53,613 nucleotides of DNA from Clostridia bacterium. Lineage in GTDB: Bacteria > Bacillota > Clostridia > Acetivibrionales > DSM-27016. Each line of letters begins with the position of its first letter. Within the stretch, counting starts at the first letter, position 1. The stretch spans positions 1 to 53,613 of the forward strand of contig JAOAIJ010000018.1 in NCBI GenBank assembly GCA_026414765.1. The letters run 5' to 3'. The translations under genes were made by a program, and so were the position numbers. Of this stretch, positions 1,845 through 49,685 are shown in pieces. The notes beneath the pieces are model-generated. The model saw only the letters and a list, made by a program, of their open reading frames with translations, made no database searches and was not told where the DNA came from.

Positions 1845-3887
1845 ATGATAACAAAACAAGCATTAGGAAATACCCTTTTTGGAATGGCAGATATCTTGAG
1901 AGACAAGGTCGAGGACTACAAGTCATACATCCTCTCACTTTTGTTTTTTAAAAGGCTTTCTGATAACTATACATGGGAAATTGAATACGGTTTACAGGAA
2001 TTTAGGAAAGAGTTCGGTGTCGAACCAAACGAAAAGCAGAAACAGAAAATCATTGCCGATAAACATGACTTCATTATTCCAGAGGGATGTTTTTGGGAAG
2101 ACGTACGAAAAGCCCCTCTTGATAAAAAAAACGATGCTTTAAATAAGGCGGTTAATAATATTGCGGATGCGAATGTTGCGCTTAAAGGAGTTATTAATAC
2201 TGTACGATGGAATGAGCCATCACCTGATGGATCTGGTGGGAAAAAGCTTCATCCAGAAGTACTTAGTCTTCTTGTAAGCTATCTTGATGCGGTGGATTTA
2301 AGTAATCGCAATGCTTCAGTTGATGTTCTAGGCGATGCTTATGAGTATTTAATTAAAAGGTTTGCTGACGAAAATAAAGGGGGTACTACCGCGGGACAGT
2401 TTTATACTCCGCAAGAAGTAGTAGATATTATAGTTCGGTACCTTAAACCCCAAAAAGGTAACACCGTTTATGATCCGACCTGTGGCTCTGGTGGTTTTTT
2501 AATTAATTCTGCCAAATACATTAAAAGAACAACAGGGTCTCAAAAGAATATACGCCTTTTTGGACAAGAAGATGTCTGGAACACGTGGGCGATTGCAAAT
2601 ATTAATATGATCTTACATGGTCTCGATGCCTCAATAAAGAAAGGCGATACTTTAAGAGACCCCAAATTTACAGAAGAGGAAAATGATCTTGCGATTAGAA
2701 CGTTTGATTTAGTTATGGCAAATTTCCCATTTTCACAAGAGAACTGGTGGAAAAATGGTGAACCCAAAAAAGATAAAAAAGGGAAAGCGGTTTTAAAGAA
2801 TGATGGCTCCCCTCAATTAGAGTATCCAGGGAAAGAAGATTTTAACGATCCATATGATCGTTTTGAGTATGGAATTCCACCGTACTCAAACGGGGATTTT
2901 GCATTTTTACAGCATATAGTAGCTTCAATGAGTGAAAATGGAAAAGCGGGTGTGGTTTGTCCTCAAGGAGTATTATTCCGTGGTCAGCCAGAAAAAACAG
3001 AAGAGGAAGATGGACAAAACCGAAAAGCAGATGATGAATATTTAATTCGTCGTGGCTTCTTACAAGGATCAGTCAATAAAGATGGTGAGTTTGTTAGAGG
3101 AGTTAATATAATAGATGCAATTGTTGTGTTGCCGGGGAACCTTTTCTATGGAACTACAATACCGGGTTCAATTGTATTTTTCAATAAAAATAAACCGGAA
3201 GAGCGTAAAGAAAAGGTTTTGTTGGTTTATGCAGCTAAAGAAGGATGGTACAAAGAAGAACCAAATATGAATGTTTTGTTACCTCAGGACATTTTGCGAA
3301 TTTCTACAATTCTTGAATCCTGGGGTGATATTGAAATAGCTAAAGAATGGATAACATCCCAAAAGGTACGACTTAGAGAACTCATTAAAGAAGAACTTGA
3401 CTTTAAGAAAAGTGAAATAGAACTTGATACACAAGAAGACATTAAATTAGCAGAGGAAAAGCTACGAAAAGCAGAGCTGCAAGTAACAGTTAAAGAAGAA
3501 GAGGGCAAGAAGCCGACTAAAACAGAGTTGGGTAATTTGGAAAAAGCCAAAGATGCTTTTGGAAAATTAGTTTCCCTGAGAGAACAACGTATTATTGAGG
3601 CCGAGAGGCAAGCTGAAATGGAAAGAGCAGCTATTGATGAAGTTGAAGCCGAACTGATCAACATGCTTGCTGATCCTGAGATGCGTAAACGCTATTTTTC
3701 TATTGTTGATATGGAGGAACTGGAAGAGAATGAGTTCAACCTAAATATACCACGATATGTGGATACCTTTGAACCTGAGGAAGAGATAGATTTAGGTGAA
3801 GCGATCAAAGGCTTTAAAGCTGCTTTGCTGGAAGAAAGTGAAGTTGATGAGTTGCTTTCAAAGCTAATGGAGGTGATTCAAAGATGA
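1845..3887 (+). CDS. hsdM: Type I restriction-modification system DNA methyltransferase (M subunit)
   Basis: A 680-residue N6-adenine methyltransferase subunit. An N-terminal HsdM_N helical domain (residues 1-150) is followed by the Rossmann methylase core. The SAM-binding motif I is DPTCGSGGF, starting at residue 210. The catalytic motif IV reads NFPF at 293-296 where NPPF/Y is usual. A GQFYTP signature (residues 187-192) precedes motif I. The last 200 residues are rich in Lys/Glu and likely coiled coil (residues about 530-600), which pairs with the S subunit. The stop overlaps the hsdS start in ATGA, so M and S are translationally coupled. With S it methylates the recognition site, and with S and R it forms the restriction complex. 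Confidence 0.95.
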   Translation: MITKQALGNTLFGMADILRDKVEDYKSYILSLLFFKRLSDNYTWEIEYGLQEFRKEFGVEPNEKQKQKIIADKHDFIIPEGCFWEDVRKAPLDKKNDALNKAVNNIADANVALKGVINTVRWNEPSPDGSGGKKLHPEVLSLLVSYLDAVDLSNRNASVDVLGDAYEYLIKRFADENKGGTTAGQFYTPQEVVDIIVRYLKPQKGNTVYDPTCGSGGFLINSAKYIKRTTGSQKNIRLFGQEDVWNTWAIANINMILHGLDASIKKGDTLRDPKFTEEENDLAIRTFDLVMANFPFSQENWWKNGEPKKDKKGKAVLKNDGSPQLEYPGKEDFNDPYDRFEYGIPPYSNGDFAFLQHIVASMSENGKAGVVCPQGVLFRGQPEKTEEEDGQNRKADDEYLIRRGFLQGSVNKDGEFVRGVNIIDAIVVLPGNLFYGTTIPGSIVFFNKNKPEERKEKVLLVYAAKEGWYKEEPNMNVLLPQDILRISTILESWGDIEIAKEWITSQKVRLRELIKEELDFKKSEIELDTQEDIKLAEEKLRKAELQVTVKEEEGKKPTKTELGNLEKAKDAFGKLVSLREQRIIEAERQAEMERAAIDEVEAELINMLADPEMRKRYFSIVDMEELEENEFNLNIPRYVDTFEPEEEIDLGEAIKGFKAALLEESEVDELLSKLMEVIQR

Positions 3888-5137
3888 AGGCTCTTCAGAA
3901 ATTTACTAATGCAGGGATACCCAAAGACTGGACTCCGTTAAGGTTGAAAACGGTTTGTAATTTTAACTATGGAATCCCCTTGTCTGACTCAAATAGAGTA
4001 GATGGACCCTATCCTGTATATGGCTCGAACGGGATTGTTGGTTGGCACAATTCATATTTTGTTACAGGTCCAGGAATTGTTGTGGGCAGAAAAGGCACTG
4101 CAGGAGAAGTATCTTGGGTATTTGATAATTTCACACCGATTGACACTACATTTTATATCACTCTCAAAGACCAAACTAATAACATGAAATATGTATATTA
4201 CCTGCTTCAAATTTGTGGTTTCGAGAAATTTTCTGGAGCAACAGGGGTTCCTGGTCTAAACAGAAACGATGCTTATAAATTAATAATTCCTATGCCGAAA
4301 GAGACTGAACAAAAAGCTATCGCCGAAATTCTTTCCAAAGTTGACCAAGCTATTGAGGTAGTTAAAAAAAGCATCAAGGTAGCAGATAAACTTAAAAAGT
4401 CTCTGATGCAAAACATACTCACTGGCAAGCTTAAGCCAGATGGTTCTTGGCGTAGTGAAGAAGAGTTTTATGTGGACGAGAAGTTTGGAAAGATACCTAA
4501 GGGATGGCACATAGTCAAAGGAAATAAAATTACATCAAAAATAACAAAAGGCCAATCGCCAAAATGGAAGGGCTTTGAATACCAACCTTCAGGTATACTT
4601 TTCGTTACAAGCGAAAATGTGCGAGATGGTTATATTGATGTATCTGAGCCCAAATTCCTACCAGTTGAATTTCATGAGAAGATCAAAAATAGCCAACTAC
4701 AAAACGGAGATGTATTAATTAATATTGTTGGGGCGTCGATTGGTCGTTGTGCAGTTTATGATCTGAATATAGAGTTAGCTAATACAAATCAGGCAGTATG
4801 TGTATTACGAATAAATGATGATAATGATAGCAAGTTTATTTCTTATTATTTACAATCCGAGAAGACTCAAAGAAGGCTTTTGGGTTCTCAAGTTGAGACT
4901 GCACGAGCAAATTTGTCTCTTAGTGATTTTAGAAAATTTAAATTTATAATACCTGAAACAAAACATGAACAATTATTAATTGCTGAAGAAATAGAGAAGG
5001 TTAATTCTCTTATTGTCTCCAAACAAACCAAGATACACTCACTGAGAATTCTCAAAAAATCGCTCATGCAAAACCTCTTGACGGGTAAGGTGAGAGTGAA
5101 TGTAGAAGAAATCAACCAATTACTGGAGGAGGTATAA
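3884..5137 (+). CDS. hsdS: Type I restriction-modification system specificity subunit (S)
   Basis: A 417-residue S subunit with two target recognition domains (about 15-140 and 205-340). Each is followed by a helical conserved region. The two conserved regions share nearly the same ending, KKSLMQNILTGK and KKSLMQNLLTGK, the typical circularly repeated spacer helices of HsdS. TRD1 opens with IPKDW and TRD2 with IPKGW, the standard first motif. The protein reads the bipartite DNA site and holds two M subunits. Only one hsdS is present and no recombinase or second TRD cassette adjoins it, so nothing suggests phase-variable specificity. The start overlaps the hsdM stop. Confidence 0.95.
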   Translation: MKALQKFTNAGIPKDWTPLRLKTVCNFNYGIPLSDSNRVDGPYPVYGSNGIVGWHNSYFVTGPGIVVGRKGTAGEVSWVFDNFTPIDTTFYITLKDQTNNMKYVYYLLQICGFEKFSGATGVPGLNRNDAYKLIIPMPKETEQKAIAEILSKVDQAIEVVKKSIKVADKLKKSLMQNILTGKLKPDGSWRSEEEFYVDEKFGKIPKGWHIVKGNKITSKITKGQSPKWKGFEYQPSGILFVTSENVRDGYIDVSEPKFLPVEFHEKIKNSQLQNGDVLINIVGASIGRCAVYDLNIELANTNQAVCVLRINDDNDSKFISYYLQSEKTQRRLLGSQVETARANLSLSDFRKFKFIIPETKHEQLLIAEEIEKVNSLIVSKQTKIHSLRILKKSLMQNLLTGKVRVNVEEINQLLEEV

Positions 5138-5139
5138 GA

Positions 5140-8100
5140 ATGAGTAAGTTATCAGAACTCAAAGGTGTAGAAAAACCGGTCACTGAATGGCTAACAAAGA
5201 TGGGTTGGACTTTTAAGAGTAATGAGGACCTAAAGGCTTATAACCGACCATTTTCCAACCCAATCATAAGCCAGATTTTAGTTGAGAAGGTGGCAGAGTT
5301 TAATAGGATATCTATAAGCGTTGCTGAAACAGTGGTTGATCAGCTTCTTCAACACCTTAACAACCCAAGTCCAATTATTGGGAACGAGAACTTTCTCGAG
5401 AAACTCGTTAAGGGAATCACTCTTTCGATTGATGGAGAAGACCGAGATTTTCATTTTATCGACTTTGATAATATCTGGAACAACAGCATGATTGTTACCA
5501 ACCAGTACTGGGTGCAAGGCTTTAAAATGGTGAAGACAGATATCGTCCTACTGATCAACGGTATCCCGCTCATACCTATTGAAGCAAAACAGCGTGCCCG
5601 AAAGGGAACAAACTGGATTGAAGGGGTAAGACAGTTTTCCACCTATGATCAGAGAGCGGACAAACTTTTTATGTGTCATGGATTTGGCGTTGCCTGCAAT
5701 GGTCGTATAACCAAATACGGCATACCTGGTGCGTCATCTTCCTATTTTAATGAATGGAAAAGTACTGTCCTGGATACTACGCATGCAAACCCTATTCTTG
5801 ATGAATCCAATGACCTTTGCAAAACCTATCTGAATGATGAAGATGGCTTTTATCACTTTGATGTGGAACGTCTGCCTAATGGCGAAGTGTTAGAAAGAAT
5901 GAAGTTAGGAATTATCGGCTTGCTACAACCTGCGAGGGTCTTGGACATTATTAAAAACTTTCTGGTGTTTGAACGAACAGATGGTAAAATCATAAAAAAA
6001 GTAGCTAGATACCAGCAGCTTCGTGCTGCCAATAAAATAGTCCATCGAGTTGTTGAATCCGATTTGAAACAAGGTGTTATATGGCATACACAAGGTTCCG
6101 GAAAAAGCCTGACTATGCTATACACAGCTTATAAACTCCGCAACATTCCAAAGCTCAATGATCCGACGGTTTATATTGTTGTTGATAGAAAAGATCTTAA
6201 AGAACAAATTGGGGGCACTTTTGATGATTGTGAATTTCCTAACGCAAGACCAGTTTATAATATAGGAGATTTGAAGTACATAATCGATAATGCACCAGCA
6301 GGAGTATTTATAACGACAATTCAAAAGTTCCGAGAATTGGGAAATAGACAGGATAATAGAGATAATATCATCATTCTTATCGATGAAGCTCATCGAACAC
6401 AGTATGGTGATTTTCAGATTGAACTTCAGAATGTACTTCCAAATGCTCGACGATTTGCCTTTACAGGTACTCCAATACCTAAAACTCATAAAGAATTCGG
6501 AGTTAAAAATGCCAAGGGAAATCAAGAGTATTACCTTGATAAGTATGGGATTAAGGATGCAATTGAGGATGGGGCGACCGTTCCTATTCGCTATACCTTC
6601 GGACCGCAGGAGTGGTTTCTTGACAAGGATAAGCTAAAAGCTGGCTATGAAGAAATTACAGCAGATTTAACTGAAGATGAAAAACGAATGGTTGAAAAAA
6701 GAGTACAGCCATGGAAAGTTTTTTTGAAACATGAGGATCGTATTGCGGTACTTGCTAAGGATATTGCTGAAGACTTTAGAAATGTCGTGGAACCTCAAGG
6801 ATATAAAGCCCAGGTGGTAGCTTGTGACAAAGAGGCTTGTGTGCTCTACTATAATGAGCTTCTTAAATATTTTGATCGATCCGAAATAACTATTATTTTT
6901 TCTACTGGCAACTATGAAGAAGGGGAGAAGTATGAGTTATTTAAAGATCATTATAAAGAAGATAAGGAACGCCGTAGGCTAATTGCGAAATTTAAGAAAC
7001 GTATCACACTGGAAGAACAGAGGGAAGGAAATAATCTTAAGATAATTATTGTTTGTAATATGCTTCTAACAGGCTTTGATGCGCCTATTGAGCAGACTAT
7101 GTATCTTGATAGCCCAATTAGGGATCACAACCTTCTACAGGCTGTTGCAAGAACTAATCGACCATATGATGATAAGGTTTCCAAACTTTCTAAAGAATTC
7201 GGTAGAATAGTAGACTATGTCGGAGTGTTTGAAAATTATAAAGACGCATTGAATTATGACCCTGAAGATATTGGAGAGTTTGAGGATGTAGAAAGTCTGG
7301 TTCTTCAGTTCCCAAAAGTGCTCGATGATGCTTTTGAACCTTTTAAGGACATTAAGCTTGAGGATACATATGAGTGTTCTATGGCAATCGTCAGAAAGTT
7401 AACGGAATTAGATCAGGGTAAATTTGAGCAGTCTTATAAAGAGGTACTACAGTTGTGGGAATCAATATCACCACATCCGAGGCTCAGAGATTATCGTGAG
7501 AAGTATTTGTGGCTCAATGCAGTTTATGAGATTTACCTTGAGGAATTCAAACGTCTTGATTTTGAAGCGGAAGTGTATGCAGCGAAGACCCGTAAATTAA
7601 TTCAGGAAAGTGCGCAGTTGATTGATTTCAAAGGGCATCTACCTGAAGTGAAAATTGATTCGAACTATTTGAATGAACTTAAGGAAACTAAGCTTTCTCC
7701 AACCGATAAGGCTGAAAAGATTATTCGCGATATTGAAACTGTAATCAGAAGAAACGAAGCGAATAGTGCAGTCTATATTGAATTCCAAAATAGATTAGAC
7801 GAGCTTATTAAAAAGAAACAGGAAGAAAGTGATTCAATAGAGCAGTTAATACTAAAACTCAGCGAGCTTTATAGTGAATTAGACGATATTTCGACGCTTC
7901 CACAAAGAATGGGATTTGAGGATAGAGGCACATTTGAAATATTCACGCATATTAAAAATGCAAGGATAGAGAATTTTCATGAAGAAATAACCAGAGAGTT
8001 TGCAAAAGATGTTGTTGATTCTGTCATTCGGAAGAAGATATATATTGGCTGGCAGGATGTACCGAATGAAATAAATAGGCTACGAGTTAATATAGAAATC

Positions 8101-8202
8101 TTTGCAGCTGCAGATAAATACCAGCAATTGGCCATTGACGAGGATGCTCATTTAATGGATACAATCATGCTGAGTGTTGTCAAGCATTTTGGTTTGAGGT
8201 GA
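5140..8202 (+). CDS. hsdR: Type I restriction endonuclease subunit R (nuclease/translocase)
   Basis: A 1020-residue motor and nuclease subunit. The N-terminal PD-(D/E)xK nuclease is visible as D134 and E148-A-K150. The SF2 helicase motor follows, with Walker A GSGKS at 319-323, DEAH at 415-418, motif III in FTGTPI, and a second RecA lobe with NMLLTGFDAP and LLQAVARTNRPY (motif VI). The C-terminal 300 residues are helical and probably bind the M2S core. The gene starts two bases after hsdS with GGAGGT before the ATG, in one operon. All key motifs are intact, so the enzyme should be active. Confidence 0.95.
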   Translation: MSKLSELKGVEKPVTEWLTKMGWTFKSNEDLKAYNRPFSNPIISQILVEKVAEFNRISISVAETVVDQLLQHLNNPSPIIGNENFLEKLVKGITLSIDGEDRDFHFIDFDNIWNNSMIVTNQYWVQGFKMVKTDIVLLINGIPLIPIEAKQRARKGTNWIEGVRQFSTYDQRADKLFMCHGFGVACNGRITKYGIPGASSSYFNEWKSTVLDTTHANPILDESNDLCKTYLNDEDGFYHFDVERLPNGEVLERMKLGIIGLLQPARVLDIIKNFLVFERTDGKIIKKVARYQQLRAANKIVHRVVESDLKQGVIWHTQGSGKSLTMLYTAYKLRNIPKLNDPTVYIVVDRKDLKEQIGGTFDDCEFPNARPVYNIGDLKYIIDNAPAGVFITTIQKFRELGNRQDNRDNIIILIDEAHRTQYGDFQIELQNVLPNARRFAFTGTPIPKTHKEFGVKNAKGNQEYYLDKYGIKDAIEDGATVPIRYTFGPQEWFLDKDKLKAGYEEITADLTEDEKRMVEKRVQPWKVFLKHEDRIAVLAKDIAEDFRNVVEPQGYKAQVVACDKEACVLYYNELLKYFDRSEITIIFSTGNYEEGEKYELFKDHYKEDKERRRLIAKFKKRITLEEQREGNNLKIIIVCNMLLTGFDAPIEQTMYLDSPIRDHNLLQAVARTNRPYDDKVSKLSKEFGRIVDYVGVFENYKDALNYDPEDIGEFEDVESLVLQFPKVLDDAFEPFKDIKLEDTYECSMAIVRKLTELDQGKFEQSYKEVLQLWESISPHPRLRDYREKYLWLNAVYEIYLEEFKRLDFEAEVYAAKTRKLIQESAQLIDFKGHLPEVKIDSNYLNELKETKLSPTDKAEKIIRDIETVIRRNEANSAVYIEFQNRLDELIKKKQEESDSIEQLILKLSELYSELDDISTLPQRMGFEDRGTFEIFTHIKNARIENFHEEITREFAKDVVDSVIRKKIYIGWQDVPNEINRLRVNIEIFAAADKYQQLAIDEDAHLMDTIMLSVVKHFGLR

Positions 8203-42967: not shown

Positions 42968-44743
42968 ATGGAAATATTTCGCATAAATTCTGATGATTTA
43001 AAGTTATTGAAAAGGGCAATAAAATACATAAAGCCTTATAAAATAAGGTTTAGTCTTGCATTTATCTGTATTTTTGCAGGTATAGCTGTTGGAATAATAC
43101 AGCCGTTATTATTTGCTAAAATAGTTACTAACTTGTTTTCAGGGGATTTCAATGGGATCCTAATATATTCATTATATTTATTATTAATGTATTTACTGCA
43201 AATGTGTCTAGGGTTTTTTCAATCATATTTATTCAGTTATTTACAGGTGAGCATAACATTTGATTTAAAGAATAATATGTATGACAAAATCTTATGCTTA
43301 CCCGTAAAAGCATTTGATAAAATGGGAGTAGGGGATTTTTTATCCCGTTTAGAGGGTGATGCATCAGCTATAGCTAGTATTATTACAGAGCAGTTACTAA
43401 ATGCAGTAGTTGATATAATTAAAGTAATTATTTTGAGTATTGTTATATTCATGGTTAGTACACAGTTAGCCTTTATTGTTATACTAAGTTTCCCTGCTAA
43501 TTTCTTAATATTCTCAATTTTTGGTAGAATATTAAGAAATAAAGTTAAAGAAGCTAAAAAAATCAGTGATACTTATTATAGAAACATTCAGGAGTCAATC
43601 TCAGGGATAAGGGAAATAAAAAGTCTGGGAGTAAAAAACAGTAAGCTGAAATCCTATTTATTAATTAATCTGGAACTTAAAATGAAGAATTTAAAGATAG
43701 CAATACTAAATATATTTTCAAATACTATAACTCAAAGCGTTGAGTATATTACAACTGTTCTTGTACTGGTTATAGGGGGATATCTAACACTAAAAGGCTT
43801 TATGAAAATTGAATACTTACTGGCATTCAACTCCTATTCAAACCAATACTTGACCTCCTTAATGAATTTATCAAGGCTAAATTCAAATATACAACAAATA
43901 TTTACATCACTTGAAAGAATATTTGGATTAATGGATAACTTAAATTATAGCTGTACAGAATTTGGTAATGTGAAAAAGGATCATGTAAAAGGGGATATTG
44001 AATTTAAAAATGTCATTTTTGAGCATGATTCAAACCAGCCAGTCTTAAAAGAAGTTTCATTTATTGTTCCTAGTAATAAAATTATTGCAATCGTTGGACC
44101 GAGTGGAAGTGGAAAAACAACAATATTCAATCTTTTACTTCGGTTTTATGAACCTATGTCCGGGCAAATACTTTTGGATAATATCTGTATAGGTGATTAT
44201 GATGAGGAGTCACTTAGAAAACATATCTCCATAGTTCGACAGGAGCCTTTTTTGTTTAATGTATCAATAATAGATAATCTACGATTAGTAAATCCATCTG
44301 CATCAATAGAAGAAATTGATAATGCTTGTAAGGCAACATATATATATGATCACATAAAAAGCCTACCTCAAGGATATAACTCTATAATTGGAGAAAATGG
44401 AGTCAATTTTTCAGGTGGTCAAAAACAGAGGCTGGCAATTGCAAGAGCATTACTAAAAAATTCAAAAGTTATTTTGTTTGATGAGGCAACCTCGTCTCTT
44501 GATAACGAGTCCCAGTTTATTATTAAAAAGACAATTAAGGAGTTATCTTCAAATCATACAATTATAGTTATTGCACATAGACTATTAACTGTAGTTGATG
44601 CAGATGAAATAATTGTCATTGATAACGGTAGGATTTCTGGAAGTGGAACACATCCCAAACTAATTAAAAACAATGCAATATATAAAAATCTATATAAAGA
44701 AGAGCTTAGAATAATAAACGAGAAAAGTGTCCTTGAAGCATAA
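42968..44743 (+). CDS. ABC transporter (fused permease/ATPase) of the RiPP cluster
   Basis: A 591-residue half-transporter: six membrane segments (30-300), then the nucleotide-binding domain with Walker A GPSGSGKTT at 377, Q-loop IVRQEPFLF, signature VNFSGGQKQR, Walker B VILFDEATSS and the H-loop IAHRLL. No N-terminal C39 peptidase is present, so it can export but not trim the leader. It is the first gene in the direction of the CLI_3235-type cluster and probably exports the mature peptide. The ribosome site AAGGA lies upstream of the ATG. Export role inferred from position. Confidence 0.85.
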   Translation: MEIFRINSDDLKLLKRAIKYIKPYKIRFSLAFICIFAGIAVGIIQPLLFAKIVTNLFSGDFNGILIYSLYLLLMYLLQMCLGFFQSYLFSYLQVSITFDLKNNMYDKILCLPVKAFDKMGVGDFLSRLEGDASAIASIITEQLLNAVVDIIKVIILSIVIFMVSTQLAFIVILSFPANFLIFSIFGRILRNKVKEAKKISDTYYRNIQESISGIREIKSLGVKNSKLKSYLLINLELKMKNLKIAILNIFSNTITQSVEYITTVLVLVIGGYLTLKGFMKIEYLLAFNSYSNQYLTSLMNLSRLNSNIQQIFTSLERIFGLMDNLNYSCTEFGNVKKDHVKGDIEFKNVIFEHDSNQPVLKEVSFIVPSNKIIAIVGPSGSGKTTIFNLLLRFYEPMSGQILLDNICIGDYDEESLRKHISIVRQEPFLFNVSIIDNLRLVNPSASIEEIDNACKATYIYDHIKSLPQGYNSIIGENGVNFSGGQKQRLAIARALLKNSKVILFDEATSSLDNESQFIIKKTIKELSSNHTIIVIAHRLLTVVDADEIIVIDNGRISGSGTHPKLIKNNAIYKNLYKEELRIINEKSVLEA

Positions 44744-44893
44744 TTAAGCATTAGCAAATTTTCATATTGGTATTCTTCAATTTGTGTAAATAAGGTTTAA
44801 TTCTCATCATTTTAAAGCGCGCTAAAAGGTGAGTATTAATATATCCCCATAAGAATAATTCGGGAGAAAGGATATAAAGGAGGTGAAATTGAT

Positions 44894-45046
44894 ATGAAAA
44901 AATTGGCAAGAAAGTCTCAAAAATCTATACAGACACTGGAAGCATTCTGCAGTCATGTGGCAGGTCATTATTGTACTTCATGCTACTGTGTTACACAAGG
45001 GGGTTCTGGTTTAGCTAAAATTCCGGTATATAGCGCCGGATACTAA
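44894..45046 (+). CDS. RiPP precursor peptide, CLI_3235-type (Cys-rich)
   Basis: Fifty residues. The leader MKKLARKSQKSIQTLEAF is of the type known from clostridial CLI_3235-class bacteriocin precursors. The core contains CSHVAGHYCTSCYC, four cysteines at residues 19, 27, 30 and 32. The tail VTQGGSGLAKIPVYSAGY is unusual for the class, which is normally Cys-dense to the end. AAAGGAGGTGA, an almost ideal ribosome site, is 8 bases upstream. It lies between the exporter and the radical SAM gene, and is the only good substrate candidate. Confidence 0.75.
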   Translation: MKKLARKSQKSIQTLEAFCSHVAGHYCTSCYCVTQGGSGLAKIPVYSAGY

Positions 45047-45073
45047 TAGGACAACCTGTAGACTACTCAGGAT

Positions 45074-45114
45074 AAATATGCAGTGGGGGTTAGTTTTAAC
45101 CCCACTGCATATTT
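45074..45114 (+). terminator. Strong hairpin between precursor and maturase genes
   Basis: A perfect 15-bp stem (AAATATGCAGTGGGG and its complement) with an 11-base loop, but an A-rich tail instead of a U-run. It is probably a partial terminator or mRNA-stabilising hairpin that makes the precursor more abundant than the enzymes. Confidence 0.6.
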
Positions 45115-45147
45115 ACATAAAAAATAATAAAGTTAGGAGAATTACTG

Positions 45148-46599
45148 ATGAATTCTGAGTTACCTTTTGTTCATCTGTTTAAAAATATTAATGAGTATTA
45201 TTTATATGATGTAAACAAACACAAGATACTTAACATACCAGAAGAAGTATATAATTTGTTACTGAAACAGAAAGAAACGGGTGATAAAGTCCAGCACCCT
45301 TTAATAGCAAAAATGATGGAAAATGGGTATCTGTCATCCAATAGGGTTGTTGAAATGCTTCATTCAGCAGACCCTGTCTTAGAAGATTACTTAAACAGTA
45401 AGGTTGAAAGGATGGTACTTCAGGTAACCCAACAATGTAATTTCAGATGTGCATATTGTGTTTATTCGGGGGAATACACAAACAGAAAACATGCGAATAA
45501 TAAAATGAGTTTAGAAGTAGCTAAAAAAGCTATTGATTTTCTGATTAGTCATTCAAGAGATTCCTCTTCAATTGATTTGGGGTTTTATGGAGGAGAACCA
45601 TTACTGGAATTTGACTTAATTAAAAATTGTATAGAATATTTTGAAAAAAAGGCTGAAGGTAAGGCAATAACAATAAGCATTACATGCAATGGGAGTTTAA
45701 TAAGTGAAGAAATCATAGAATACTTTCAAAACCATAATGTTACAATGAGCATAAGTATTGATGGGCCTAAAGAAGTGCATGACAAAAACAGAAAATTTGC
45801 TGGCAGCGGATGTGGTACTTTTGACAAAGTTCAGGAAAACTTAATTATGATAAGGAAAAAGTATCCGGAATATGCGAAATCCATACTGTATTCAATGGTT
45901 ATTGATCCAACACTTGACTTAAGCTGCATAAATCAGTTTGTAGCTACCGAGGAATATTTTGATGATGTAATAATAAGCACCTCTATTATATCCAGTGATT
46001 ACAAAAAGGATAAGATTAATTATACTGAAGATTTCATTTCAAAATGGGAATACAATAAGTTCAGATTCTTTTTGGCGATGCTAGGGAGAATAGACGATGG
46101 GAATTTAGCTAAATTTGTAAAGATATCTTTTAAGTTATTATATGATTTTATGGAAACCGCTGATAAGTATTATCCGGAAATAAACAGTAAAGACCATCAC
46201 TCCGGGCCATGTGTGCCGGGACAAACAAGGTTATTTGTAAATGTTAATGGTGACCTCTTTCCTTGTGAAAGGGTCAGTGAAGATTCTGAAGCTATGAAAA
46301 TTGGAAATATTTATGATGGGTTTAGTTTTGATAAAGCCCGGGCAATACTGAATATTGGAAAGTTGACTGAGGATAATTGCAGGGATTGTTTTGCATTCAG
46401 AAGATGCACTTTATGTGCTTCACATGCTGATGTGGTTAATGAGAATACAAGTGAATTATCAAAAGAAAAAAAGTTATCTGCATGCTTGGGAGTACGGCAA
46501 AGATTTGAACAGGATCTTAAAGATTATTGCACGCTAAAAAGGCTAGGGTATGACATTAACCGTGATGTTATCAGGATAGGAGAAAAAAATATAAAATAG
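45148..46599 (+). CDS. ccpM: Radical SAM/SPASM peptide maturase, CcpM-type
   Basis: A 483-residue maturase. Residues 1-90 form the precursor-binding-like N-terminus. The radical SAM core has C97-x3-C101-x2-C104 (CNFRCAYC), GFYGGEPLLEF and ISIDGPKEVHD. The SPASM region has C355 (CVPGQ), C373 (FPCERV), C411, C414, C420 and C423 (NCRDCFAFRRCTLC). This matches the Cys-rich peptide radical SAM maturase CcpM family. It would install thioether or similar links on the precursor. Ribosome site AGGAGAA. The next gene is 14 bases downstream. Confidence 0.85.
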   Translation: MNSELPFVHLFKNINEYYLYDVNKHKILNIPEEVYNLLLKQKETGDKVQHPLIAKMMENGYLSSNRVVEMLHSADPVLEDYLNSKVERMVLQVTQQCNFRCAYCVYSGEYTNRKHANNKMSLEVAKKAIDFLISHSRDSSSIDLGFYGGEPLLEFDLIKNCIEYFEKKAEGKAITISITCNGSLISEEIIEYFQNHNVTMSISIDGPKEVHDKNRKFAGSGCGTFDKVQENLIMIRKKYPEYAKSILYSMVIDPTLDLSCINQFVATEEYFDDVIISTSIISSDYKKDKINYTEDFISKWEYNKFRFFLAMLGRIDDGNLAKFVKISFKLLYDFMETADKYYPEINSKDHHSGPCVPGQTRLFVNVNGDLFPCERVSEDSEAMKIGNIYDGFSFDKARAILNIGKLTEDNCRDCFAFRRCTLCASHADVVNENTSELSKEKKLSACLGVRQRFEQDLKDYCTLKRLGYDINRDVIRIGEKNIK

Positions 46600-46613
46600 G
46601 GAGATATAGATAT

Positions 46614-47744
46614 ATGAAAGGTAAAGAGAGAATAATTGTACATCCTTATGATTCACATTTTACTCCGGTATTAAGAAATACGAATTTTTTGAACGAATAT
46701 GATATCGTGGGCGTTTCTTCGCTTACTGGTTGGGGTTTTAGTGGTAAGGATGCTGGTTTGGCAGATGGCGGCAATTTGACCGGGATTATCGTCGAAAAAA
46801 AATTTGACGTACTTATTGAACTATGCGATACCGTACTATTTCTTGAATCTGATTTGAAATGTTCATTTGAATTGAATATTTATCCTCAAATTATGCAAGC
46901 AATAAATGCAGGCAAGAATATAATCTGTACATTAGATTTAAAAGAAAAGTATAAAGAAATCTATGATGCATGCATGTCGAAAAGTGTGAATTTTAACTAT
47001 TTAAGGAAATCAGATGCTAGTGAACCTGAATATTTAAATAAACCGGGTAAAATATCAGACATCAGTACACCTATTATTGCGGTAATCAGCGTCACTGAAG
47101 GAGCGAATAAATTTGCCATCCAATTATCCTTAAGAGACAACATTCAGAAAATGGGTTATAAGGTTAGTCAGGTAGGAACTAGAAACTATTGCGAATTATT
47201 AGATTTTCACTCATTCCCGGAGTTTATGTCTAGTGGTACAATACCTGAATATAAAAAGGTTCTATTGTTTAATGAATACATAAAAAACATAGAGGTGCAG
47301 GAAGAGCCGGATGTTATAATAGTTGGAATACCTGGTGCAATAATGCCATTTAATAATGATATTCATAATGGGTTTGGTATTTTAGCTTACGAGGTATTTC
47401 AGGCAATAAATCCGGATGCTTCAATATTAAGCCTTCTATATGAAGACTATAAAGCTGAATACTTTGATATTTTAACTAAAAAAATAAGATATCAATTTGG
47501 ATTTGATGTTGATGGCATAAACATTACCAATAAAAAGGTGGATTGGATGGAAATGATGAACAATAAAACATCAACTATCAGAACACTTTCAATAAATACG
47601 GATTTTGTTAATAAAAAAGTGAAAGAGTTTAATAATAAATCGGATATACCAGTTTTCAACATATTGGATGACTCGGATTCAAAAAGTATGGCTCAAGTGA
47701 TAATAAACAAATTAGAAGGAAATGCAAATATAAAAATTATTTAG
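46614..47744 (+). CDS. Peptide maturation system protein, TIGR04066-type
   Basis: A 376-residue protein beginning with a conserved IIVHPYDSHFTPVLRN and DIVGVSSLTGWGFSGKDAG, as in the TIGR04066 family of clostridial RiPP clusters. The second half has a P-loop-like region, IAVISVTEGANKFAIQLSLR, and ADIIVG-type text PDVIIVGIPGAIMPFNND, suggesting a nucleotide-binding fold. The biochemical role is not known. GGGAG precedes the start; it is in one operon with ccpM and the next gene. Confidence 0.8.
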   Translation: MKGKERIIVHPYDSHFTPVLRNTNFLNEYDIVGVSSLTGWGFSGKDAGLADGGNLTGIIVEKKFDVLIELCDTVLFLESDLKCSFELNIYPQIMQAINAGKNIICTLDLKEKYKEIYDACMSKSVNFNYLRKSDASEPEYLNKPGKISDISTPIIAVISVTEGANKFAIQLSLRDNIQKMGYKVSQVGTRNYCELLDFHSFPEFMSSGTIPEYKKVLLFNEYIKNIEVQEEPDVIIVGIPGAIMPFNNDIHNGFGILAYEVFQAINPDASILSLLYEDYKAEYFDILTKKIRYQFGFDVDGINITNKKVDWMEMMNNKTSTIRTLSINTDFVNKKVKEFNNKSDIPVFNILDDSDSKSMAQVIINKLEGNANIKII

Positions 47745-47765
47745 TTTGTATTAGGAGGGTGTTTT

Positions 47766-48044
47766 ATGGGCATAAATTGTGATACTAAAAAAGTTGATGA
47801 AACGTTAAAACAGATAATTGAGGATAAACTAAGTCTTAACTTGAATGGTTTCAGTGATGATATGGCTGACCAGGATTTGCTTGGAAGCCACTTTCGGCTA
47901 AAGGCAAGTGAGTTATTATTTATTTTTTTTGAAATAGAAAGAGTTTTTAATGTAAAAATTCCTGAAAGAGATATAAAAGAAGGTAATTTTAATACTTTAA
48001 GTAAGATTAAGAATATTATTCTTAATCAAATTAAAGTAAAATAA
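47766..48044 (+). CDS. Peptide maturation system acyl-carrier-related protein
   Basis: A 92-residue ACP-fold protein of the type found with TIGR04066 and CcpM (TIGR04069-like). ADQDLLGSHFRLKASELLFI aligns with the carrier-protein region around D-S-L, but the position of the phosphopantetheine-bearing serine is occupied by Ala (L-K-A-S). It is followed by FFEIERVFNVKIPERDIKEG, the usual third/fourth helix. So it may bind peptide or enzyme without a prosthetic arm. AGGAGGG precedes the ATG. Last gene of the cluster. Confidence 0.8.
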   Translation: MGINCDTKKVDETLKQIIEDKLSLNLNGFSDDMADQDLLGSHFRLKASELLFIFFEIERVFNVKIPERDIKEGNFNTLSKIKNIILNQIKVK

Positions 48045-48090: not shown

Positions 48091-48246
48091 ATGTTCAAAC
48101 CTATTGGTGTCAGCGAGTACAAGCTTTTGCAGGAAATTTCTGAGGAACTAAAGAGCATCCCGAATTATGTGGTCAAAAGCAATACAAAATGCGATGGAGA
48201 TGCCTTAAGGTTCATGGGATGGCTAATACTGCCTGACACAGGCTAA
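48091..48246 (+). other. Small gene remnant, unrecognised
   Basis: Fifty-one codons, MFKPIGVSEYKLLQEISEEL, then SIPNYVVKSNTKCDGDALRF and WLILPDTG, ending on the last bases of the convergent MocR gene. It looks protein-like but has no ribosome site and no known domain. It is probably a fragment. Confidence 0.3.
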
Positions 48247-49685
48247 AACAATATGCTGCCATCATACTTAGTTCTCGAGGGTATTCTTCCGATACTATCC
48301 TTAATGACACAAGAAATAGTACGAATACCTTTAAGAATTTTTTCATTATTAACTCTATACAGGCTTAAACGGACGATATTTGATTTTCTGTAATCCTGCA
48401 AAAACAAATCTTCAATATCAGTTAAGTAAATACTTTCCGAATGGAGTTTCATGGAAAATAACCTTGCATTGGTACTGGGAGGAAGTTCAATACAAGTAAA
48501 TACGCCAGTTCTTGGTATTGAAGCTTTGCATTCAGTTGGCAAATATAAATTACATGCCTTTCGTAGGGTATCCATTTGTTTGAGAAAATGCTTTCTAATT
48601 TGCTTTATATGCGTGTCATACATACCACTTTTTATAAACACTTCAAGAGCACCTTGAGATAAAACGTTGGTTGTAATATCACAGCAAGCTTTATATTCTT
48701 TGAACACATTATAAAGAACTTTAGGCATAACGGCAAGACCAATTCTTAAGCCGGGTAATACAGTCTTTGAGAAACTTTTCAAGTAAACAACTCTGTTTGA
48801 TAAGTCATGAGAAATCAATGGGTCAGACTTTGAATCCAATTCCAAATCAGCAAGGTAGTCATCTTCCACAATGTATACATCATACTTTTCGGCCAGTTTT
48901 AAGATATCCTTTTTTTGAGATTTAGTATATGAATAACCAGTTGGGTTATGAAAACGGGGCATTGTATAGAAAAACTTGATGTCATCATTACGAAAATACC
49001 TTTCAAGTGTACCCAGATCAATACCTTCCTTATCTCTTTCGATACCTAATGCTGTAACATTGTTTAATTCCAGAACCCTTTTCATACCAAAATACGTAGG
49101 TTGTTCTATCAGAACGTTCTTTTTACCGTTGGGAAAGGGCATACAGGCTAATATGAATAAAGCTTGCTGTACTCCTGATGTAATGAAAATATTATCAGTA
49201 TCAGCAAATACCTGGTAGCCGGCTAGGTGTTTTTGCAAAGCTTTTCTTAAAGCAAAAAAACCTTTTATATCTGAATATTCATATAGGCTATCCTTATGTA
49301 TTTTTATTGCATGAGTTATACACTGGCCAAAATCCAGATTTGAAATTATAGTCGGATTGGGATAGACAGAAGAGAAGTCTATTGTATTATCGTCTTCAGG
49401 CTTTTGCACAATGCTTTCTCCAGGACAAACTGAAGAAAAATCAGAGATGCTTTTTTCTTTATTATTTATATTATCCTTTTCAACAACATAATAGCCACTT
49501 TGAGGTATTGAAAAAATCACATTTTCTCTTTTTAGCTCCTCAAAAGCGTGAATAACAGTGGAAGTACTACATTTGAAATGGTTGGCTATCTTTCGGACAG
49601 ATGTAACTTTATCTCCGGCTTTTAGCTCCGATTCTTTTATTGACTTTTTTACGTACTCCATGATTTTGTTGTACTTGTTTTGCAT
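48243..49685 (-). CDS. MocR-type regulator: GntR HTH fused to PLP-dependent aminotransferase
   Basis: A 480-residue MocR protein. The N-terminal GntR winged helix is KVTSVRKIANHFKCSTSTVI, HAFEELKRENVIFS. The aminotransferase-fold part has FITSGVQQALFILACMPFPN, YTMPRFHNPTGYS, YIVEDDYLADLE and the PLP lysine K307 in LKSFSKTVLPGLRIGL. Relatives such as GabR and PdxR use PLP as effector for amino-acid or vitamin B6 genes. It is divergent from the DinB-like gene. The intergenic region has two TGGTACAG sites. Confidence 0.9.
   Translation of the reverse strand: MQNKYNKIMEYVKKSIKESELKAGDKVTSVRKIANHFKCSTSTVIHAFEELKRENVIFSIPQSGYYVVEKDNINNKEKSISDFSSVCPGESIVQKPEDDNTIDFSSVYPNPTIISNLDFGQCITHAIKIHKDSLYEYSDIKGFFALRKALQKHLAGYQVFADTDNIFITSGVQQALFILACMPFPNGKKNVLIEQPTYFGMKRVLELNNVTALGIERDKEGIDLGTLERYFRNDDIKFFYTMPRFHNPTGYSYTKSQKKDILKLAEKYDVYIVEDDYLADLELDSKSDPLISHDLSNRVVYLKSFSKTVLPGLRIGLAVMPKVLYNVFKEYKACCDITTNVLSQGALEVFIKSGMYDTHIKQIRKHFLKQMDTLRKACNLYLPTECKASIPRTGVFTCIELPPSTNARLFSMKLHSESIYLTDIEDLFLQDYRKSNIVRLSLYRVNNEKILKGIRTISCVIKDSIGRIPSRTKYDGSILF

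Follow-up and report, generated by a model that had tools for sequence, protein, structure and literature searches.

Positions 42968-48044 of the 53,613-nucleotide stretch of clostridial DNA analysed here (the window) carry what is, with a probability that we put at about 0.8, a CcpM-type (CLI_3235-type) gene cluster of ordinary layout for a ribosomally synthesized and post-translationally modified peptide (RiPP). Five open frames, all of them intact and all on the + strand, encode in order an ATP-binding cassette (ABC) exporter, a short precursor peptide, the radical S-adenosylmethionine (SAM) maturase CcpM, a TIGR04066 protein and a protein related to acyl carrier proteins (ACPs). The last two, which we call the helpers, gain a testable identity from this work, namely a predicted DUF1611/DgcN-like fold for the TIGR04066 protein (which one genome encodes as a natural fusion with CcpM) and an ACP-like fold without the prosthetic-group serine for the other. 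An activity of CcpM systems beyond thioether formation thereby becomes directly testable, and these helper findings are family-wide and not specific to the window.

Identity of the cluster and published relatives

Families were assigned by the curated cut-offs of NCBIfam and domains by Pfam. CcpM and the TIGR04066 protein exceed their NCBIfam cut-offs, the precursor falls short of its own by 7 bits and the ACP-related protein by 6; the latter is full length and in the expected position, yet lies outside the curated bound of TIGR04069. An earlier note, made from the bare letters, had named the same cluster type and genes, which the NCBIfam matches bear out, and had called the genes complete, as the five intact frames confirm. 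As judged from the sequence, the five genes have these families and this order, and the system is identified with about as much certainty as sequence allows.

Several points weigh against this assignment. The precursor and the ACP-like protein score under their own curated cut-offs, and all of the other precursors that we chose by hand (10/10) pass the TIGR04065 cut-off, which the one in the window fails (18.7 bits against 26, E 0.0015); we therefore term it CLI_3235-like and not a TIGR04065 member. In the wider sense it does belong to the CcpM-linked precursors, having the family leader just upstream of CcpM. No peptidase gene lies within the cluster, and no C39 peptidase domain was found in the exporter among the best 25 of the 26 Pfam families listed (three S8 proteases are encoded on other contigs of the same genome). 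Finally, a literature search found no published structure of any CcpM product, and for that reason thioether formation by CcpM is proposed here by analogy.

One expressed member of the family was found in the literature, SacP23 from Paenibacillus polymyxa #23, to which the window adds one more candidate bacteriocin. According to the accessible part of the report (PMC10731318), the SacP23 cluster expressed in B. subtilis is active against Gram-positive bacteria, and its product has a mass of 3.4 kDa against the 4.46 predicted and failed in Edman analysis. As far as that text goes, it shares with our cluster a CLI_3235-type precursor, CcpM (TIGR04068), TIGR04066, TIGR04069 and an ABC exporter, and its leader MRKLVKRSTNVGDTIEAF also ends in EAF, whereas its precursor has eight core cysteines (four in the window) and the cluster additionally lists a sigma factor, a subtilisin-like protease and another gene, which the window lacks. 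In the available portions of two further articles, a Roseburia cluster has the same enzymes with no precursor noticed (PMC4573289), and Haft and Basu 2011 is cited for the family (PMC7343975).

The precursor gene and its core

The precursor was divided into a leader of 18 residues (44894-44947, ending EAF) and a core of 32 (44948-45043), the conserved EAY/EAF serving as the presumed border, in line with the leader of 19 residues that PMC10731318 predicts for SacP23. The core contains four cysteines in the spacing C-x7-C-x2-C-x-C, followed by a Cys-free tail of 18 residues ending SAGY, just as the earlier note had described it. Only rows scoring at least 16 bits for the leader entered the leader tests, namely 51 other CcpM-linked precursors and the window. 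A leader profile built from these 51, without the window, places the frame first among the 1487 stop-to-stop segments that the window contains (E 0.00042, 16.8 bits; runner-up 5.5 bits, E 1.4). The gene ends 102 nucleotides (nt) ahead of CcpM and has a good ribosome-binding site (AAGGAGGTG), and the precursor call is, on these sequence criteria, more than chance.

The earlier note would have been contradicted by an additional precursor that fitted CcpM better. None turned up when the whole genome was searched with a profile made from 30 residues of each of these 51 sequences: the precursor in the window is the best match (E 0.008), and the next places (E 0.57 and 1.16) are at chance level. The E 1.16 place (G000:C22:20272-20334) is a leader-like match in a 52-residue frame, about 5.7 kb from a radical SAM gene (C22:13304-14605, 155 bits to TIGR04068).

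Relatives were gathered by several searches. Of 58 genomes of the order, 16 contained a TIGR04068 match at E 1e-110 (15 over the cut-off). With the CcpM of the window as query, 12 of 391 genomes sampled from the class had a match at E 1e-120; at E 1e-110 the query matched 10 of 100 genomes from the genus to which the Paenibacillus albidus genome belongs and 3 of 398 sampled from its phylum. A scan of named genomes yielded at least 79 loci, the first about 30 of them with CcpM-like clusters. In all, 55 distinct CcpM-linked precursors were counted, the window included, after duplicate loci of the window (L001, L002, L116) had been merged and a chance open reading frame (ORF) of 31 residues (L051) dropped. 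The rows are not independent (several are near relatives), and a second count was made on a set collapsed at about 70% identity (n=46).

The core in the window has no Asp, Glu or Asn, which is the case in only 2 of the 55, although 22/55 have none of the three between the first and last cysteine. The only other core free of these residues belongs to Halodesulfovibrio spirochaetisodalis, from outside Bacillota (L044:62-208), and its CYCSSCYC block resembles the CTSCYC of the window.

The CcpM maturase and the expected cross-links

The maturase has its CxxxCxxC motif at residues 97-104, and ten cysteines (C97, C101, C104, C355, C373, C411, C414, C420, C423 and C446, the last seven lying in the SPASM part) are invariant in the 39 sequences compared. 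It is 43-51% identical to the compared proteins from the same order and from Paenibacillus albidus, and is an ordinary family member. Six radical SAM matches were obtained in the genome (E 1e-20 or better), and among them this protein alone passes the TIGR04068 cut-off.

The top match of the CcpM profile is the SCIFF maturase CteB (5wgg, E 2e-54, starting at residue 3), and the predicted model (predicted local distance difference test, pLDDT, 89.7) superposes on the same structure over residues 3-464 (Z 26.8, 409 aligned residues, root-mean-square deviation 4.9), that is, along its full length; other structural matches mostly cover residues 77 onward. We take the N-terminal part of CteB to be a leader-binding RiPP recognition element (RRE) domain, and by analogy the N-terminal part of CcpM would be RRE-like. 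The maturases of SCIFF and of freyrasin (PapB) are likewise radical SAM/SPASM peptide maturases, yet neither class accommodates the system in the window. Its CcpM scores 136.3 bits against the TIGR03974 cut-off of 425, and its precursor has four cysteines where SCIFF has six in about 45 residues; for PapB the score is 190.4 bits against a cut-off of 340, and the core lacks Asp/Glu acceptors. On sequence grounds, membership in SCIFF or in the PapB/freyrasin type of ranthipeptides can be set aside.

In the maturation pathway that we propose, the leader MKKLARKSQKSIQTLEAF would be bound by the RRE-like N-terminal domain of CcpM, which would then form thioethers between core cysteines, all four or only some of them, and other core residues. 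Since the core contains no Asp, Glu or Asn, neither Cys-Asp/Glu links (PapB, freyrasin) nor Cys-Asn links (NxxC) can form within it, and the acceptors would therefore be other residues, in sactipeptide-like linkage to an alpha-carbon or in another type. The same feature makes this core a clean substrate for deciding which type of thioether CcpM forms. TIGR04066 and the ACP-like protein, which lacks the carrier serine, would act together with CcpM; they might form a helper complex, or the first might be a second tailoring enzyme and the other its docking partner. The ABC protein would export the product, and the leader would be cut off by a protease from outside the cluster. The product would most likely be a bacteriocin or a signal peptide.

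The two helper proteins

The AlphaFold2 model of the TIGR04066 protein (pLDDT 93.8, predicted template-modelling score 0.92) has as its top Foldseek matches the DUF1611 proteins 2obn (E 1.6e-12) and 2g0t and the N-acetyltransferase DgcN (7xrj, E 2.2e-10). The same three stand out in a second structural comparison (2g0t Z 24.1, 2obn Z 23.5, 7xrj Z 19.6, over 303-315 residues), the next matches (Z of 14.2 or less) being P-loop proteins that cover the second half only, and a profile-profile comparison with two DUF1611 proteins gives a probability of 95.2 (E 2.8e-8) over 302 columns. PF07755 alone is matched by 8 of 45 TIGR04066 members (best E 1.8e-4), the one in the window not being among them, while 7/45 match DapB_N about equally, and in a sequence search of solved structures 2g0t appeared faintly (E 0.13), below two unrelated entries. 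With the DUF1611/DgcN proteins the family would have in common a two-domain fold over at least 300 residues and profile similarity, at an identity of 9-15%.

The two groups differ in the P-loop, where in TIGR04066 the Gly before the Lys is mostly Asn or His and the following Thr/Ser is absent. Among 68 sequences the Lys is kept in 65, a Glu stands four residues earlier in 61 and a Phe follows in 60, and only four have Gly before the Lys (4/68). In the window the loop reads SVTEGANKFAI, with the first Gly replaced by Ser and with Glu162 and Lys166 retained, and departs from the canonical GK-x-T. Because the loop is altered, ordinary Mg-ATP binding is doubtful. We conclude that the two-domain fold predicted for TIGR04066 proteins is, family-wide, DUF1611/DgcN-like and that its P-loop is altered; if the models are right, the loop may possibly bind another phosphate-bearing ligand. 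A fold predicted to be common with DUF1611/DgcN proves no function for TIGR04066, and a literature search on DgcN and DUF1611 found nothing on mechanism.

The second helper belongs to a family, TIGR04069, already named 'acyl carrier-related', whose profile hits carrier proteins of solved structure (4h2s, E 7.2e-7; 6lvt, 2e-5). In the alignments to these, the position of the prosthetic-group serine is occupied in the window by Ala47. The serine is absent in 55/59 ACP-like proteins, where the column reads Pro 27, Ala 25, Ser 4 and Gly, Val and Glu 1 each (Ser in 3/43 of the collapsed set), so that this carrier-protein fold is mostly unable to carry a phosphopantetheine arm. In lacking the serine for 4'-phosphopantetheine, the protein in the window departs from the acyl carrier proteins. 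Neither the DUF1611-like fold of TIGR04066 nor the lost serine was found in the accessible literature on the family, subscription journals lying outside that coverage.

The position of the helper genes is almost constant. In the window the TIGR04066 gene starts 15 nt downstream of CcpM; among 47 CcpM places on long loci it adjoins CcpM at 46 and is fused to it at the remaining one. The ACP-like gene is in the expected position at 42 and the exporter within 4.5 kb at 40, and a leader-like ORF occurs at 42, one of which (L051) is the chance ORF mentioned above and 38 of which lie at most 700 nt upstream of CcpM; these neighbour counts are lower bounds, as some loci end early. The fused gene (L060:5941-8121, Bacterium 1XD42-54) is one frame of 726 residues in which a full-length CcpM is joined to the P-loop half of TIGR04066; the ACP-like gene follows 12 nt later.

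The natural fusion and the constant adjacency speak for a role of both helpers in maturation rather than in immunity, and their unexpected predicted shapes hint at a second chemical step. A tentative proposal, rather improbable as it stands, is that CcpM systems perform a second, non-radical modification, in which TIGR04066 would acylate the peptide bound to CcpM or add a similar group to it (at a new N-terminus or a side chain, for example) while the ACP-like protein would serve as a docking subunit without prosthetic group. If this is true, the product would be both cross-linked and capped, a type of RiPP so far undescribed. The blocked N-terminus and unexplained mass of SacP23, as given in the accessible text, are compatible with acyl capping but do not show it.

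That TIGR04066 is instead an immunity protein standing outside the chemistry, as proposed for SacP23, seems to us unlikely. The accessible part of PMC10731318 does label it 'immunity' in a table, a label that derives from its remark on ATPase subunits in the family; the predicted fold, however, is soluble, two-domain and enzyme-like, and the protein adjoins CcpM at every one of the 47 places except L060, where its P-loop domain is joined to the end of CcpM.

The divergent leader

The feature in which the precursor departs most clearly from its family is one that the earlier note did not name. Its leader, MKKLARKSQKSIQTLEAF, replaces the family MKKLGKK...EAY, and in a leave-one-out test it scores 20.4 bits, the second lowest of 52. 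This divergence, with the TIGR04065 score below the cut-off, could be read as a mismatch between CcpM and the peptide in a cluster that is decaying or silent, which we regard as very unlikely: the five frames are intact, the ribosome-binding site and a hairpin ahead of CcpM are retained, and CcpM keeps its ten invariant cysteines. Moreover, the SacP23 leader MRKLVKRSTNVGDTIEAF, as given in the accessible text of its report, also deviates from MKKLGKK, yet its cluster is active.

The precursor within its family

Judged against the family counts, the length, the four cysteines and the tail of the precursor are ordinary. The median length is 58 residues, and 12/55 have 50 or fewer (10/46 in the collapsed set), so that the epithet 'short' given by the earlier note does not distinguish this one. 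The median number of core cysteines is 5; four or fewer occur in 24/55 (23/54 without the window; 21/46 collapsed) and fewer than four in 10/55 (9/46), and the core density of 0.125 compares with a median of 0.122, unchanged by collapsing, 27/55 being at or above the value in the window. The supposed contrast with a Cys-dense class is contradicted by these figures. The Gly/aromatic tail called atypical fares no better: Cys-free tails rich in Ser/Asn/Thr/Gly/Ala/Tyr are general (median 26 residues, against 18 in the window), and 28/55 precursors have an aromatic residue within the last five positions. A short Cys-poor precursor was therefore rejected as a novelty.

What stands of the claim is narrower. 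Among the nearest CcpM relatives, every precursor (7/7) carries six cysteines in 55-67 residues, so that the precursor in the window has fewer cysteines within its own branch, and its leader is an outlier; from neither of these does it follow that it carries new chemistry. That it represents a new subclass with different cross-links, the proposal of the earlier note, is even less probable than a decaying cluster, for although the six-Cys precursors of its relatives and the rarity of cores without Asp, Glu and Asn speak for it, its cysteine density is that of the family median, many other precursors have four core cysteines or fewer and its CcpM is an ordinary one.

Intergenic hairpin and origin of the cluster

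The gap between precursor and CcpM folds at -31.3 kcal/mol (z -4.88), and 15 of 18 hand-picked gaps of this kind reach a z of -2 or below; L037, L039 and L042 do not. The hairpin in the window is absent from the listing of the terminator scan and may set how much peptide is made relative to enzyme.

In a quick tree of 68 CcpM proteins (that of SacP23 not among them), the window groups with seven Paenibacillus rows (Shimodaira-Hasegawa-like approximate likelihood ratio test, SH-aLRT, 93) and then with a Thermincola row (95), while three other rows from the same Paenibacillus genus search are placed elsewhere. The exporter has its best match among the compared loci in that of Paenibacillus albidus (529 bits; next 286). 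The cluster there (L037) has the same gene order and a CcpM of 51% identity, and differs in its precursor of 55 residues with six core cysteines. The GC content of the cluster in the window is 31.2%, against a mean of 36.0% (standard deviation 2.1), the lowest of 98 overlapping windows of its size. Tree, exporter and low GC together suggest, but do not prove, that the cluster was transferred. As to mobile carriage, one distant CcpM match on a plasmid (36% identity) was found.

Nine CcpM-like matches lie in unannotated faecal records labelled as phage, the best at 39-43% identity (MT837814.1 39%, MT839046.1 43%), and these may be bacterial DNA. Two consecutive precursor genes occur in one locus (L035:2998-3661), and L039, L164 and L166 each contain two adjacent CcpM clusters.

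Features and genomic setting

Table 1. Features of the CcpM-type cluster in the window
Feature	Position	Strand	Basis
ABC exporter, fused membrane and ATPase domains, 591 aa	42968..44743	+	Pfam ABC_membrane 158.5 bits, ABC_tran 109.3 bits
Ribosome-binding site of precursor gene, AAGGAGGTG	44877..44885	+	read from sequence
Precursor peptide gene, 50 aa	44894..45046	+	TIGR04065 18.7 bits; independent leader profile
16-bp hairpin between precursor and CcpM	45073..45115	+	folding of gap, z -4.88
CcpM radical SAM/SPASM peptide maturase, 483 aa	45148..46599	+	TIGR04068 580.2 bits, cut-off 500
TIGR04066 protein, 376 aa	46614..47744	+	TIGR04066 404 bits, cut-off 200
ACP-related protein, 92 aa	47766..48044	+	TIGR04069 63.9 bits, cut-off 70, E 1.4e-17

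The neighbours do not look part of the set: upstream lies a DUF4386 gene, and downstream, at 48243-49685 on the - strand, a MocR-like regulator (PdxR model 294.5 bits, cut-off 320). A promoter scan was uninformative (33 consensus matches against 31.5 expected), and the sole terminator-like site of the terminator scan, at 46790, is intragenic and no better than chance. The window contains no tRNA and no Rfam match at the gathering threshold. Far upstream of the cluster, at 1845-8199, frames of 680, 417 and 1020 residues resemble by eye a type I restriction-modification set.

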